64,000 bases of DNA from contig JAOAGQ010000050.1 of assembly GCA_026415675.1 (NCBI GenBank), positions 1 to 64,000 on the forward strand, written 5' to 3'. Origin of the DNA: Syntrophorhabdaceae bacterium. Its GTDB lineage: Bacteria; Desulfobacterota; Syntrophorhabdia; Syntrophorhabdales; Syntrophorhabdaceae. The position numbers and the translations under genes are program-made. Every line of letters begins with the position of its first letter. The first letter of the stretch is position 1. Below the pieces are notes generated by a model, which was given only the letters and a program-made list of their open reading frames with translations, searched no databases and was not told where the DNA came from. Positions 19,756 through 52,655 of this stretch are shown piece after piece.

Positions 19756-21124
19756 GTAATACCTCCATATTTTTTTCGGGAAGAACCTCTCCCTTTTTGC
19801 CATCGATTGCTTCCATCTGTTGATAAACCGGCCTTCCCTTAAGGGAGTTTGCGTATCCCTTTAGTATTTCCACATCTATCAAGTTCCCAATCATTCCCCG
19901 CTCTCCCGGTAAGTTTACGATTTTGTTTGTCCTTGTCCTCCCCGTATATTCCTCGCCCCCGTTTTTACTCTTACCCTCTATGAGGATCTGAACAACAGAC
20001 CCCTCCATTGCCCTGTTTTTCTTCAATGTAATCGCCTTTTGTGTGTCTTGGAGAACCTTAAGCCTTGATAAAGCCTCCTCTCTCGGCACGGTCATCTCCA
20101 GTGACCAGGCTAATGTATACTTCCTTGGAGAATAGACAAAAGAAAATAGCCCATCGAATTCTACATCCCTTATAAGCTCCATGGTCTTTTCAAAATCCTG
20201 TTCATCCTCCCCCGGGAAACCTACGATACAATCCGCGGTAATTGCTATATGGGGTACCCTGTTTCTAAGCAAATCGATCTTCCTTCTATAATCTTCTGAC
20301 GTATACCCCCTGTTCATAGATTCCAATATCTTATCAGAACCTGACTGGAAGGGAAGGTGTATATGTTCACAGAGTTTTTCAAGGTCTCCAAAACAGTTTA
20401 TCAATGCATCGGAGAGGTCTTTAGGGTGGGATGTGACGAATCTAATACGTTCAATCCCCTCTATCTTATTTATGGCTTTCAAAAGCTCGGGGAAACCCAT
20501 ATCTGATGTGCCTTTATTGTAAGAGTTCACATTCTGCCCGAGAAGGGTTACCTCCTTAACCCCACTCTCTGCGAGTCCCCTCACTTCCTTTATGATATCC
20601 TCACTCCTCCTGCTTACCTCCCTGCCCCTCACGTAGGGAACTATACAGTAACTGCAGAAGTTATTACAACCCTTCATTATGGAGACATAGGCCTTTACAT
20701 CTCTTTCAGTCCTATCAGGTATGGAAATATAGATCGGGGCCCCCCCGTTTTCAGAAAAATCGAAATGTTTACCCTTTTCGATTGAGTTTTTTATGGCCGT
20801 CTCTATCTTTCCTATATTCGATGGGCCCAAAGAGAAATCTATGAAGGGGACCCTGTTTAGAATCCCCTCCTTCTCAAGCTGGGCGATACATCCCGTAACC
20901 CCTAATATGGTCCCTTTTTTCGATTTTATCCGCTTCAGCCTACCCATTAAGCTGTAAAACTTCTCTTCCGCCTTCTTCCTCACACAACACGTATTAACTA
21001 TTACTACCTCGGCCTCTTCTGCATCGAATACCTGCTCATGGCCTCGAGATGCGAGGAGATACGCCATCTTTTCAGAATCATGTTCGTTCATCTGACAGCC
21101 AAAGGTCTCGATACAGAACTTCAT
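19718..21124 (-). CDS. miaB: tRNA-2-methylthio-N6-dimethylallyladenosine synthase
   Basis: A radical SAM methylthiotransferase. It has the N-terminal UPF0004 domain with cysteines in ETFGCQMNEHDSEK, NTCCVRK and GVTGCIAQ. The radical SAM cluster is CNNFCSYCIVPYVRGRE and the C-terminal TRAM domain covers the last ~65 residues. It adds a methylthio group to i6A37 of tRNAs reading UNN codons. The start is either the ATG at 21124 or a TTG at 21130, the latter being better spaced (5 nt) from AGGAG. The C-terminal ~25 residues extend past the usual TRAM end and overlap the next gene. Confidence 0.94.
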   Translation of the reverse strand: MKFCIETFGCQMNEHDSEKMAYLLASRGHEQVFDAEEAEVVIVNTCCVRKKAEEKFYSLMGRLKRIKSKKGTILGVTGCIAQLEKEGILNRVPFIDFSLGPSNIGKIETAIKNSIEKGKHFDFSENGGAPIYISIPDRTERDVKAYVSIMKGCNNFCSYCIVPYVRGREVSRRSEDIIKEVRGLAESGVKEVTLLGQNVNSYNKGTSDMGFPELLKAINKIEGIERIRFVTSHPKDLSDALINCFGDLEKLCEHIHLPFQSGSDKILESMNRGYTSEDYRRKIDLLRNRVPHIAITADCIVGFPGEDEQDFEKTMELIRDVEFDGLFSFVYSPRKYTLAWSLEMTVPREEALSRLKVLQDTQKAITLKKNRAMEGSVVQILIEGKSKNGGEEYTGRTRTNKIVNLPGERGMIGNLIDVEILKGYANSLKGRPVYQQMEAIDGKKGEVLPEKNMEVLHAQRNEGCRHHG

Positions 21125-21138
21125 TGCCAAAAAAACTC

Positions 21139-22251
21139 CTACTCCGCCTTTTCCCTTATATAAAACTTAGGTCCCAATTTTTGCATCTTCTGGACTATAC
21201 CGCCATATTCGAGTTCTGAGTAGGGCAGCATCGCAGCCCCGGAAAATCCCTGCTCCCTTATCTCCGTTGCCTTTCTCGAGACCTTTGCCCTTATGTAATC
21301 CCAGTAAGGGTGGTCAAAGGCATCGGCAGGCTCCGTAAGTTTACCGTTATGTACACAGAATCCTAAAGCACACACAACAGGAGGGCCATCGAAATAAGAG
21401 ACGCTGGAGTTCATCTTCACGGGCATCAATGGACCGGTATGGCTACCCCTCATAAAACCGGCAACATAATGGCCTATATTGAAAGGGGCGAGGGCCTCTC
21501 CTGTGGCAGGGAATGGACCCTGAACCCTAACGAGCATTACGGGGTCATCCTTACCTGTATATTTTCCAGCAATGTTGTGTAGCCTTGTTGTGCTTACCAC
21601 CGCCGCTATCTCCCCTGTCTCCCTTGACCATACGGACTCAACAACAAAACGTTCATTATCCCTAAGCAGCGCTGCGATATCATAGAGTTCTTCAGGGGCG
21701 TTGAGTTCAATTATCCGGTCCCCTTCCGTATGGTTTACATCCATGATCACAAATTTAAACCCCTTTGCCATGTTGGGGGAGAGTATGAGACCTGAGTTAT
21801 ACATGGGATCTGCGAACATAAGATAGAGGGGAAGGTTGTATGCCCCGGGATCCGTCTTGTCGGCGGCAAAAAATAGAAACGGTTCGTTCGGCCTTTCGAC
21901 GAATTCCATCTCCGCCACAGCAGGACCCATCCCCCTTATATTTCCAGAAAATGAATCTTTCAACAAATCCTGGCCAGCCCCATAGAGACCCTGGGATTTG
22001 GCCACCTCTGTCCCTGCCAGAAAAGCATCCCAGGCGAGTTTATGAACTTCCTCACTCCCGATCCCGTGTTTGTGGGAAAAGAGGATCGCCATATCGTCAC
22101 CGGTATGGCTTACAAAATAGTCGCTTACAATACCTTTACCCTCTTTTTCGATAAATTCCTCCACCTTTTTGAACAAAGGTGTACTTGGTTTAATGTGACC
22201 CCCGAGACTGCCAATATCCGCTTTAATGATTGATAATGTGGTTTTGTTCAT
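21139..22251 (-). CDS. Archaeal-type fructose-1,6-bisphosphate aldolase/phosphatase
   Basis: A 370-residue protein of the bifunctional FBP aldolase/phosphatase family (type V FBPase). Signatures are SIIKADIGSLGGHI at the N-terminus, SHTGDDMAILFSHKHG, MFADPMYNSGLIL and FMRGSHTGPLMPV followed by FDGPPVV. It condenses DHAP and glyceraldehyde 3-phosphate and dephosphorylates the product, giving unidirectional gluconeogenesis. This enzyme is typical of archaea and deep-branching or anaerobic autotrophic bacteria. GGAGGAG precedes the ATG, and the first 29 nt overlap the end of surE. Confidence 0.93.
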   Translation of the reverse strand: MNKTTLSIIKADIGSLGGHIKPSTPLFKKVEEFIEKEGKGIVSDYFVSHTGDDMAILFSHKHGIGSEEVHKLAWDAFLAGTEVAKSQGLYGAGQDLLKDSFSGNIRGMGPAVAEMEFVERPNEPFLFFAADKTDPGAYNLPLYLMFADPMYNSGLILSPNMAKGFKFVIMDVNHTEGDRIIELNAPEELYDIAALLRDNERFVVESVWSRETGEIAAVVSTTRLHNIAGKYTGKDDPVMLVRVQGPFPATGEALAPFNIGHYVAGFMRGSHTGPLMPVKMNSSVSYFDGPPVVCALGFCVHNGKLTEPADAFDHPYWDYIRAKVSRKATEIREQGFSGAAMLPYSELEYGGIVQKMQKLGPKFYIREKAE

Positions 22252-23046: not shown

Positions 23047-23122
23047 TCGGGGCGACGGGATTTGAACCTGCGACCTCCTGCACCCCAAGCAGGTGCGCTA
23101 AACCATGCTGCGCTACGCCCCG
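23047..23122 (-). tRNA. tRNA-Pro (anticodon GGG)
   Basis: A 7-bp acceptor stem (CGGGGCG/CGCCCCG), a D arm (GCGC/GCGC), an anticodon stem CCTGC/GCAGG with loop TTGGGGT (anticodon GGG) and a T loop TTCAAAT are all visible. The discriminator is A and no CCA is encoded. The T stem GCAGG/CCCGT contains one A-C mismatch at its third pair. It reads CCC and CCU codons. Confidence 0.93.
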
Positions 23123-24545: not shown

Positions 24546-24574
24546 TTGACAAAACATATAATTTTAAGTTTAAT
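24546..24574 (+). promoter_or_regulatory. Sigma-70 promoter of the leader RNA and aminotransferase operon
   Basis: A perfect -35 TTGACA (24546-24551) and a -10 TTTAAT (24569-24574) are separated by the ideal 17 nt. Transcription would start near 24582, leaving about 185 nt of untranslated leader before the aminotransferase start. Confidence 0.65.
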
Positions 24575-24675
24575 AAATATATTATGGCTATGTTCGGTAC
24601 GTGCACATTTTACGGTTTTTACTTTTACTTTAGAGGCTTGCACCCGGGCATAGTTTTGCTTTGAAAAAAGCAAAA

Positions 24676-24706
24676 GGCCATGGGTGCAAAATCCATGGCC
24701 TTTTTT
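24676..24706 (+). terminator. Terminator/attenuator 1 in the leader
   Basis: GGCCATGG (24676-24683) pairs with CCATGGCC (24693-24700), extended by A-U pairs, and is followed directly by TTTTTT. The 5' arm and loop contain the 3' strand of P1. Confidence 0.8.
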
Positions 24707-24712
24707 GTTTGA

Positions 24713-24742
24713 GGCCATGGCGATAGGGCTATGGCCTTTTTT
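24713..24742 (+). terminator. Terminator/attenuator 2 in the leader
   Basis: GGCCAT (24713-24718) pairs with ATGGCC (24731-24736), followed by TTTTTT. It reuses the GGCCAT sequence of terminator 1, so cross-pairing between the two is possible. The T-tract ends 12 nt before the ribosome site GGGAGG. Confidence 0.65.
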
Positions 24743-24765
24743 GTTATATAAAGAGGGAGGACTTG

Positions 24766-25953
24766 ATGATAGTTTCCAAAAAAATGATGAGGCTTATAAA
24801 GGATCAGGAGGGCTGGACGAGGAAGATGTTCGAAGAAGGGTTGAGGATGAAAAGAACCCTCGGAGAGGATAAAGTATATGATTTTTCTCTGGGGAACCCC
24901 GATATTGAACCTCCCGATGGCCTCAATAAAGCGATGGCCGATATGCTTCTAAACGGTGAAAAAGGGATGCACAGATATATGGAGAATAGTGGTTACCTAG
25001 GGGTAAGGGAAGAGATAGCGCGATACCTTTCAAGACACTATGGGTTGAACTTTGAGGCAAAACATGTATTTATGACCGTTGGCTGTGCCGGTGGCATAAA
25101 CATCATCTTCAAGAGCATGCTCAACAGGGGGGATGAGGTGATCGTCCCTAACCCTTTCTTCTGGGAATTCAAAAATTATATCGAGAACTACGGGGCTATA
25201 ATGAAACTGGTCGATACAACGGAGGATTTTCAACTCGACGTGGACAGGATAGGATCGGCCATAACAAAAAAGACGAGGGTGGTTCTTATAAATAGCCCCA
25301 ATAACCCCACAGGCGTTGTTTACAGAGAAGAGAAATTAAGAGAACTCGCCACACTCTTATATGAGAAGAGGGAAGAGGGACAGGAAATTTATCTCGTGGC
25401 CGATGAGGCGTATAAGAAGATAGTATACGACGGGATTTCCCTGCCAAATCTCTTCGATATATATGACCTTGTGATCACCGTCACATCCCACTCGAAAGAC
25501 CTTGCTTTACCCGGAGAACGGATAGGTTACATCGCCATATCCCCAAAGATCAAAGAGGTGGATACCCTTGTTTCTGGCCTAATCATCTCGATCAGGGCCC
25601 TGGGCTTTGTCAATGCCCCTGCCCTATTCCAAAGGGTCGTTGGTAGATTTCAGGATAGTTCGGTGGATATCAAGGAGTATCAGAGAAAGAGGGATACCAT
25701 ATACGATACATTAATACAAGCCGGATTCGATTGTGTAAAGCCTGATGGCGCCTTCTACCTGTTCCCAAAATCACCCATAAAGGATGAGGTCTCCTTTGTC
25801 ATGAGGATGCAGAGAGAGGAGAGGATCCTCGTTGTCCCCGGAAGGGGCTTTGGAAAAAAGGGCTATTTCCGGATAGCATACTGTGTACCCTATGAAAAGA
25901 TTATAGCTGCATCGGACGGCTTTATAAGGGCCGGAAAAAGATATTTCTCATAG
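24766..25953 (+). CDS. PLP-dependent class I/II aminotransferase (first of pair)
   Basis: A 395-residue fold-type I aminotransferase. NNPTGVVY, DEAYKKIVY, the PLP lysine in SHSKDLALPGERIGY and the C-terminal FRIAYCV are visible. The ATG at 24766 is preceded by GGGAGG; a TTG at 24763 is also in frame. The family contains aspartate/alanine-type enzymes; the substrate is unknown. It follows the structured leader RNA and is followed 15 nt later by a close paralogue, suggesting a recent tandem duplication and joint regulation. Confidence 0.9.
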   Translation: MIVSKKMMRLIKDQEGWTRKMFEEGLRMKRTLGEDKVYDFSLGNPDIEPPDGLNKAMADMLLNGEKGMHRYMENSGYLGVREEIARYLSRHYGLNFEAKHVFMTVGCAGGINIIFKSMLNRGDEVIVPNPFFWEFKNYIENYGAIMKLVDTTEDFQLDVDRIGSAITKKTRVVLINSPNNPTGVVYREEKLRELATLLYEKREEGQEIYLVADEAYKKIVYDGISLPNLFDIYDLVITVTSHSKDLALPGERIGYIAISPKIKEVDTLVSGLIISIRALGFVNAPALFQRVVGRFQDSSVDIKEYQRKRDTIYDTLIQAGFDCVKPDGAFYLFPKSPIKDEVSFVMRMQREERILVVPGRGFGKKGYFRIAYCVPYEKIIAASDGFIRAGKRYFS

Positions 25954-25968: not shown

Positions 25969-27153
25969 ATGGTGATTTCAAAAAATATAGCGGAATCGAT
26001 GAAAAGTTCATCCTGGATAAGGGCGATGTTTGAAGAAGGGGAAAGGCTTAAGAAAAAATACGGGCCTGAGAATGTATACGATTTTACCCTCGGTAACCCG
26101 ATTGCCGAACCCCCTGCCCAGCTTAAAGAAGAGTTGATCAAGGTTGCAACATCGAACAAAAGGGGTATGCACCGCTACATGACCAACAGTGGTTATGAAG
26201 AGGTGAGAGAAGAGATAGCGACCTTTATGAGAGAAGCCTCAGGTCTTAATTTCGGAAAAGAGCATATTATAATGACCGTAGGGGCAGCAGGGGGTATCAA
26301 CGTGGTATTAAAGTCCCTGCTTGATCCAGGAGATGAGGTGATCGTCCCCAATCCATTTTTTGTGGAATTCATGTTCTATATTGGTAATCACGCCGGTGTT
26401 ATGAAACTTGTCGACACAAAGGAGGACTTTCACCTCGATATCGATAATATTGAAAAGGCGATAACAGAGAGGACTAAAGCGATAATAATAAATTCTCCCC
26501 ATAACCCTACAGGGGTTGTGTACAACGAGGATGAACTGAATCGCCTCGCATCCCTTTTAAGGGAAAGAAGGAAAAAGGGGCACAGGATTTTTATCATATC
26601 CGACGAGGCCTATAGAAAAATTTTATACGATAATATCAAATTTCCGAATATGTTCAACATCTATGAAGATACAATAACGGTTACTTCCCACTCAAAAGAC
26701 CTTGCTCTACCCGGGGAGCGGATAGGTTATATAGCCATATCCCCCATCATGGATAATGCCCAATCCCTTATAGATGCCGCGATTTTTTCAAACAGGATCC
26801 TCGGGTTCATAAACGCCCCGGCCATAATGCAGAGGCTCGTCGCCAAATTCCAGAAGAATAGCGTAGACATAGGGGATTATCAGAGAAAAAGGGATGCCAT
26901 ATACCAGATACTGATAGATGCAGGTTTCGAGGTGGTCAAGCCATCAGGGGCATTTTACATATTTCCCAAGGCACCCATAGAGGACGATATCAAGTTTGTA
27001 AAGGATTTACAGAAGCACCATGTTCTTGCCGTCCCTGGCATAGGTTTTGGAAAAAGCGGGTATTTCAGGCTTGCCTACTGTGTCGAAATGGATGTGATCG
27101 AAAAATCGAGACCCTATTTCAAAGAGGTGATGGCGAGTTATAGAGGGAGATAA
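25969..27153 (+). CDS. PLP-dependent class I/II aminotransferase (second of pair)
   Basis: A 394-residue paralogue of the preceding protein, aligned over its whole length: the start (ISKN versus VSKK), HRYM.NSGY, NSPHNPTGVVY, DEAYRKILY and SHSKDLALPGERIGYIAISP are shared. The PLP lysine lies in SHSKDLALPG. The ATG at 25969 has GAGAGG upstream with 8 nt spacing and is preferred over a GTG at 25960. Two copies side by side may differ in amino donor or keto acid, or may form a heterodimer; neither is shown by the sequence. Confidence 0.9.
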   Translation: MVISKNIAESMKSSSWIRAMFEEGERLKKKYGPENVYDFTLGNPIAEPPAQLKEELIKVATSNKRGMHRYMTNSGYEEVREEIATFMREASGLNFGKEHIIMTVGAAGGINVVLKSLLDPGDEVIVPNPFFVEFMFYIGNHAGVMKLVDTKEDFHLDIDNIEKAITERTKAIIINSPHNPTGVVYNEDELNRLASLLRERRKKGHRIFIISDEAYRKILYDNIKFPNMFNIYEDTITVTSHSKDLALPGERIGYIAISPIMDNAQSLIDAAIFSNRILGFINAPAIMQRLVAKFQKNSVDIGDYQRKRDAIYQILIDAGFEVVKPSGAFYIFPKAPIEDDIKFVKDLQKHHVLAVPGIGFGKSGYFRLAYCVEMDVIEKSRPYFKEVMASYRGR

Positions 27154-52475: not shown

Positions 52476-52655
52476 ATGAAAAAATTTATGGTGTTACTTA
52501 TGGCTGTTACTTTCTTTGCCAGTTTTGCCTTGATGGGTTGTGGTCCTTCCTCAGAGCCACCCAAACCGGCACCAAAGGAAGAGGCAAAACCTGCAGCGCC
52601 ACCGCCTGAGCCACCTAAGGCAGAGCCAGCCAAGGCAGAGCCAGCCAAAAAATAG
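52476..52655 (+). CDS. Small Pro/Ala/Lys/Glu-rich lipoprotein
   Basis: A 59-residue protein beginning at the ATG at 52476, with AAGGAGGTG upstream. A signal peptide (KKFMVLLMAVTFFASF) leads to the lipobox LMGC, after which the mature protein is a repetitive, disordered chain of Pro, Ala, Glu and Lys (PKAEPAKAEPAKK, with a 15-nt direct repeat in the DNA). It may act as a flexible tether in the periplasm. It is followed by a strong hairpin and then pal. Confidence 0.8.
   Translation: MKKFMVLLMAVTFFASFALMGCGPSSEPPKPAPKEEAKPAAPPPEPPKAEPAKAEPAKK

Follow-up and report, generated by a model that had tools for sequence, protein, structure and literature searches.

The leader of a two-gene aminotransferase operon in the window (the whole stretch of DNA analysed, 64,000 nucleotides in length) is very probably a ribosome-mediated transcription attenuator of the trp/phe type, which would sense charged tRNA-Phe and tRNA-Tyr and control both genes, a reading drawn from the sequences of this leader and its relatives. 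The initial annotation had recognised in this region a transcription switch with mutually exclusive helices, and this part is retained, together with the attenuator that it named as one option, while its preference for a riboswitch or a free sRNA is not. The promoter, the P1 helix, the inner helix within it and both terminators all lie where that annotation had put them; it had overlooked a leader peptide ORF that starts between the promoter and P1 and ends within the inner hairpin's loop. The features of the locus, numbered by regions where they take part in alternative pairings, are the following:

24546-24574, + strand: promoter, consisting of TTGACA (24546-24551), a 17-nt spacer and TTTAAT (24569-24574), read from the sequence
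24584-24664, + strand: leader peptide ORF of 26 codons, MAMFGTCTFYGFYFYFRGLHPGIVLL, with ATG at 24584 and stop TGA at 24662-24664, from frame conservation
24608-24631, + strand: regulatory codon tract TTT TAC GGT TTT TAC TTT TAC TTT, encoding F Y G F Y F Y F, from codon conservation
24638-24645, + strand: region 2, the 5' strand of P1 (antiterminator), TTGCACCC, codons Leu-His-Pro, pairing with region 3
24654-24675, + strand: inner hairpin within P1, whose loop holds the leader stop (24662-24664), from folding
24672-24708, + strand: terminator 1 (3:4), the first GGCCATGG hairpin, stem and U-tract, from a terminator scan
24676-24689, + strand: region 3, made of the 5' arm of terminator 1 (24676-24683) and the 3' strand of P1 (24682-24689), from pairing
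24693-24700, + strand: region 4, CCATGGCC, the 3' arm of terminator 1 and alternative partner of region 5, from pairing, swap and covariation tests
24711-24744, + strand: terminator 2 (5:6) with U-tract, from a terminator scan
24766-25953, + strand: gene 1, class I/II PLP aminotransferase of the PRK06836 family, ATG at 24766, from profile matches
25969-27153, + strand: gene 2, paralogous PRK06836 aminotransferase, from a profile match and relatives

The reading of the downstream genes as an aminotransferase followed by its paralogue holds, since profiles assign both to the PRK06836 family; gene 1 matches NF005305 with 521 bits (cutoff 376) and also PF00155, and the two genes are neighbours in relatives too. 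Among the solved sequences nearest to the two PRK06836 aminotransferases there is an aromatic aminotransferase, from which the substrate is not readable. Elsewhere in the window, positions 52608-52648 carry a short tandem repeat with 2.7 copies of a 15-nt unit, GAGCCACCCAAGGCA. Homologous leaders were gathered from the DNA ahead of the first aminotransferase gene of relatives, and about 60 distinct sequences share the architecture; they are carried by Syntrophorhabdus, other Syntrophorhabdales, Syntrophaceae, metagenome-assembled genomes (MAGs) labelled Deltaproteobacteria or Thermodesulfobacteriota, and one labelled Spirochaetes; no such leader was seen with the remoter homologues in Chloroflexi, Nitrospinota and others. 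The Spirochaetes case (L072, MAG Zod_Metabat.878) has a 65%-identical aminotransferase and a Tyr-rich leader, MNAYIHIFRNYIYYS, whose stop precedes region 2, and its occurrence reflects either transfer or contamination or misbinning.

The leader frame is open in all 40 leaders compared, with no stop at all, against 7/40 and 6/40 for the other two frames, which hold 63 and 51 stops. Codons -8 to -4 before the His-Pro pair are F or Y in 34 to 40 of the 40 leaders and the two residues interchange (F at -4 in 39/40, Y/F at -5 in 38/40, F/Y at -6 in 40/40, Y/F at -7 in 39/40); the substitution of Phe by Tyr and vice versa at conserved codons marks the tract as a regulatory one that reads both amino acids. 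Frame and codons together thus give what an attenuator possesses, a short ORF, predicted to be translated, with regulatory codons matching the pathway. As far as geometry goes, the placement of these codons relative to region 2 and P1 is also that of an attenuator: the F codon at -4 begins 9 nt upstream of region 2, from which we infer that a ribosome stalled on the F/Y tract would leave region 2 mostly or wholly free, and the stop codon falls past the end of region 2, by 1 nt in 10 leaders and by 16 nt in 25, and lies within P1 in every measured leader but one, so that a ribosome completing the peptide would block P1. The exception, L027 (genome G006), has TGG in place of the leader stop TGA and a frame of 59 codons that runs across the terminators, while the near-identical leader L044 retains TGA; the loss of the stop is either decay or a sequencing error.

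P1 pairs TTGCACCC (24638-24645) with GGGTGCAA (24682-24689) in 8 of 8 positions, and because its 3' strand overlaps terminator 1, P1 and terminator 1 exclude each other, as had been proposed. Covariation in P1, on which the initial annotation had staked its proposal, is found as compensatory changes between clades: region 2 encodes Leu-His-Pro (TTG CAC CC), Gly-His-Pro (GGT CAC CC) or Ala-His-Pro (GCT CAC CC) according to the clade, region 3 follows it as GGGTGCAA, GGGTGACC or GGGTGAGC, and three outer pairs are altered on both sides (TTGCACCC/GGGTGCAA, GGTCACCC/GGGTGACC, GCTCACCC/GGGTGAGC), the two outermost being counted by anchored pairing where MAFFT gaps were misplaced. The inner six pairs are paired in 99.3% of cells. 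The leader therefore has an antiterminator that covaries and is exclusive with an intrinsic terminator, as expected of an attenuator. Within P1, the inner 9-bp helix (24654-24662 with 24667-24675) varies in sequence among relatives; the GAAA tetraloop that was described as closing it is present in the window, but it is not conserved and its G and first A belong to the TGA stop, half of the motif thus being stop codon, which rules out its use as a tertiary-contact motif.

That P1 and its internal loop bind an amino or keto acid, making the leader a metabolite-binding riboswitch, is most improbable, even though a helix mutually exclusive with terminator 1 ahead of an aminotransferase gene would suit such a switch and the aspC and trpB motifs, found near aminotransferase or trpB genes, have been published as riboswitch candidates (PMC11109978). 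The conserved structured ligand core by which a metabolite riboswitch is recognised was not found: the internal loop, whose conservation the first reading had looked to, lies in a P1 interior that is variable in length and sequence and lacks a conserved unpaired core, only the F/Y codons, CACCC/GGGTG and the stems of the terminators being conserved. What is conserved upstream of P1, moreover, is a frame made of F/Y codons, and kindred leaders with W or F/Y/W codons stand before other genes; this conserved frame in the homologues was the reason for dropping the riboswitch. An Rfam search at two thresholds bore out the earlier impression, formed by eye, that the leader belongs to no class: no family reaches the gathering score on the leader, PyrR (25.8 bits vs 54) and trpB (RF04312, 19.8 vs 59) staying at chance level, and at that threshold only a tRNA is found in the window, and nothing except a tRNA in 15 related loci. 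The former, a tRNA gene (RF00005) at 23047-23122 on the - strand, is the sole Rfam match in the 64 kb.

In the Syntrophorhabdales, translation of the leader peptide is predicted to start at or very near the 5' end of the transcript. The leader ATG lies about 9 nt past the -10 box in the window and 6-9 nt past it in 36 of 40 leaders (two of the 40 from outside the Syntrophorhabdales), which for a sigma-70 promoter would place it at about +1 to +4; the promoter spacer is of 17 nt in 34/40. A Shine-Dalgarno (SD)-like site precedes the leader ATG in 0/38 Syntrophorhabdales leaders versus 38/38 for the aminotransferase gene. The short distance between -10 box and ATG and the absence of an SD therefore predict leaderless leader peptides, and such a start, no more than about 3 nt from the predicted +1, would fit the spacing well. 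The DAHP synthase (16) and TrpB-like (23) leaders of the window's genome and its relatives start at 35-40 nt from the -35 box, whereas in the other group (Syntrophaceae and relatives) the ATG is 43-65 nt from the start of the -35 box in 18/19 leaders and an SD-like site is found in 17/19. Leaders predicted to begin at the transcript end (Syntrophorhabdales) and SD-led leaders (Syntrophaceae and relatives) are cleanly separated on the same switch, which lends itself to comparing modes of initiation in attenuation.

These elements suggest the following mechanism. The RNA would begin with the leader AUG or just upstream of it, and the ribosome would load without a Shine-Dalgarno sequence. When Phe or Tyr is scarce, it would stall on the FYGFYFYF codons immediately before region 2, so that P1 would form first and leave the 3' arm of terminator 1 free; this arm could then capture, by 4:5 pairing, the 5' arm of terminator 2. 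With both terminators switched off, RNA polymerase would continue, allowing the aminotransferases to be made. When charged Phe- and Tyr-tRNAs are ample, the ribosome would reach the stop inside P1, P1 would be blocked and terminators 1 and 2 would fold. In the window's leader, a helix between the 5' region and region 2 would also favour termination if no ribosome is present. This 1:2 helix is near chance in many relatives (mean z -1.3) but strong in the window and some others, namely the L008-L015 group, and it was set aside as a conserved element.

Folding is consistent with this scheme. With a predicted energy of -71.4 kcal/mol, the 172-nt RNA lies far below its shuffles, which give -44.0 +/- 4.3 (z = -6.3); the full RNA of the window folds with both terminators and, taken from region 2 on, with P1 and 4:5 (-51.0 kcal/mol). 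When region 2 is free, P1 is dominant in 55/56 leaders as soon as region 3 has been transcribed, the two states are nearly balanced (30 vs 26) when the end of terminator 1 is reached, and P1 with 4:5 is dominant in 55/56 once region 5 has emerged; when region 2 is masked, terminators 1 and 2 form and dominate in 49/61 leaders.

Terminator-like sites in the 500-bp region number 4, against 0.6 expected. The arms of terminator 1 (24676-24683 and 24693-24700) are paired in 100% of cells (50 leaders) and those of terminator 2 (24713-24720 and 24729-24736) in 98.5%, with two-sided changes at 4 pairs; jointly, 99.2% of cells are paired and covariation is 0.194 versus 0.132 in shuffles, a value that 0/500 shuffles reach, although shuffles, like the swaps described below, leave some effects of relatedness in. 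An automated arm search finds terminator 2 in all but two of 64 leaders, of which L018 is truly without it and L125 has a hairpin outside the search criteria. A strong promoter and two terminators would also suit a free sRNA with its end at either terminator and acting mainly in trans, and the trpL attenuator RNA of Sinorhizobium meliloti is both leaderless and trans-acting (PMC7298713); nevertheless, such a main function is very improbable, given that about 60 leaders lie immediately ahead of the aminotransferase operon and that cis-regulation explains both the exclusion between antiterminator and terminator and the choice of codons. A short RNA is to be expected anyway as a product of attenuation.

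Within the attenuator, a terminator downstream of the switch would be self-defeating unless controlled as well. We somewhat favour the view that the 3' arm of terminator 1 disables terminator 2 by pairing with it (the 4:5 relay). In the window, region 4 (CCATGGCC) is complementary to region 5 (GGCCATGG) over a perfect 8 bp. The 4:5 arms pair better within a genome than when swapped between genomes (p = 0.006 in the Syntrophorhabdales and p = 0.037 in the other group), while the control pair 3:6 shows no effect in the same test (p = 0.16 and 0.81). L033 and L040 have the arms CTCATGGCC and GGCCATGAG, whose match suits 4:5 more than the older stem, and tandem terminators with 4:5 complementarity recur, with other stem sequences, in the TrpB-like and in some DAHP synthase (aroF) leaders. 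A little short of even in probability is the alternative, otherwise compatible with the attenuator, that terminator 2 is a mere back-up and no relay exists; all these matched arms speak against it, as does the fact that a constitutive terminator past the switch would blunt it. In its favour, the Syntrophaceae 4:5 helix is imperfect, with a bulge or mismatch (13/50 cells at one pair), L018 does without terminator 2, and most aroF leaders have one terminator. At equilibrium, furthermore, the stability of terminator 2 exceeds that of 4:5 in most leaders (the latter is ahead in 8/33 with P1 formed), so that dominance of 4:5 at equilibrium, which holds for the window, was rejected as a general property and the relay would require co-transcriptional kinetics. 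If true, such a relay would be an economical sharpening of an attenuator.

Leaders of the same kind precede other aromatic amino-acid genes. In the window's genome, a leader with the peptide MNRKYECGMEITFRNYFGFWYFYSMPHPCPF lies before DAHP synthase, with a terminator (L002, C16:15539-15611, - strand), and a Trp leader, MMRGKKVYSMVWWWQ, with two terminators, lies before a TrpB-like (PRK12391) gene (L003, C74, about 21090-21250, - strand). Over the window's genome and its relatives, F/Y/W leaders precede DAHP synthase in 16/16 loci and W-rich leaders the TrpB-like gene in 23/28. That the codons match the product of each pathway lends independent support to the attenuator, and the same match points to a role of both PRK06836 aminotransferases in Phe/Tyr transamination. 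The chances are about equal for and against the broader proposal of a clade-wide aromatic attenuator regulon in Syntrophorhabdales, comprising PRK06836 aminotransferases, DAHP synthase and TrpB-like genes, with leaderless leader peptides and many switches in which two serial terminators would be released by one stall through a 2:3 / 4:5 relay. Two further observations concern single loci. L002 contains a 13-bp GTGTGGCATGGAG:CTCCATGCCACAC helix that resembles a 1:2 helix, and a Phe-rich leader with the same P1/terminator core, MMNYFSTKSFFFFSFRRVHPCL (L200, G010 C33:46284-46348, - strand), precedes a gene that by eye resembles an MBL-fold hydrolase and is a possible extra member of the regulon.

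The present reading puts a testable sensor and input, charged Phe and Tyr tRNA, in place of a riboswitch guess, suggests a metabolic role in aromatic amino-acid transamination for a generically named aminotransferase family and maps an aromatic attenuator regulon, as proposed above, in mostly uncultured syntrophic bacteria. The leaderless start combined with two terminators is a variant, each feature alone having a precedent: in the literature searched, no description was found of this combination or of these operons, and the literature on attenuators in Deltaproteobacteria or Syntrophorhabdus and on tandem terminators yielded no matching description.

The pheA and pheST leaders of Escherichia coli are the Phe attenuators of gamma-proteobacteria, with a Phe-rich translated leader and an antiterminator overlapping a rho-independent terminator. 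The leader described here resembles them in its short Phe-rich peptide, in an antiterminator lying over a terminator and in the aromatic amino-acid genes concerned, but it mixes Phe with Tyr, targets PRK06836 genes, lacks an SD and has two terminators; the Rfam Phe leader covariance model gave no match on it. In the his attenuator of Salmonella and E. coli, a chain of helices A:B, C:D and E:F alternates with B:C and D:E, the last hairpin alone being a terminator. The leader described here has a similar chain of alternatives, with a proposed relay, but 3:4 and 5:6 are each terminator-like.

Classical attenuators of Actinobacteria reuse a motif, gGCC-rGCy-GGCC, in competing helices, conserved over long distances, in a work that also mentions phenylalanine control by attenuators and the pheST operon (PMC1262725). 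A short motif is similarly reused here (CCATGGGTG / CCATGG), in other taxa, genes and sequences. The aspC and trpB (RF04312) motifs are found upstream of aminotransferase or trpB-type genes, aspC being described as a three-stem junction and trpB as maybe an attenuator (PMC11109978); the former is set apart from the present leader by its description, and the trpB model stays below its cut-off of 59 both on the window (19.8 bits) and on the aroF leader (30.5). Finally, the trpL RNA of Sinorhizobium (rnTrpL) begins with the AUG of its leader peptide, i.e., it is leaderless, and an extra role in trans has been reported for rnTrpL and the peptide peTrpL (PMC7298713). The leader peptide of the window, with its predicted leaderless start, would be alike in this respect; it differs in that S. 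meliloti trpL reads Trp and controls trpE(G), whereas here Phe/Tyr codons precede an aminotransferase operon of another lineage. In the window's genome, a Trp leader with the same layout lies before the TrpB-like gene.
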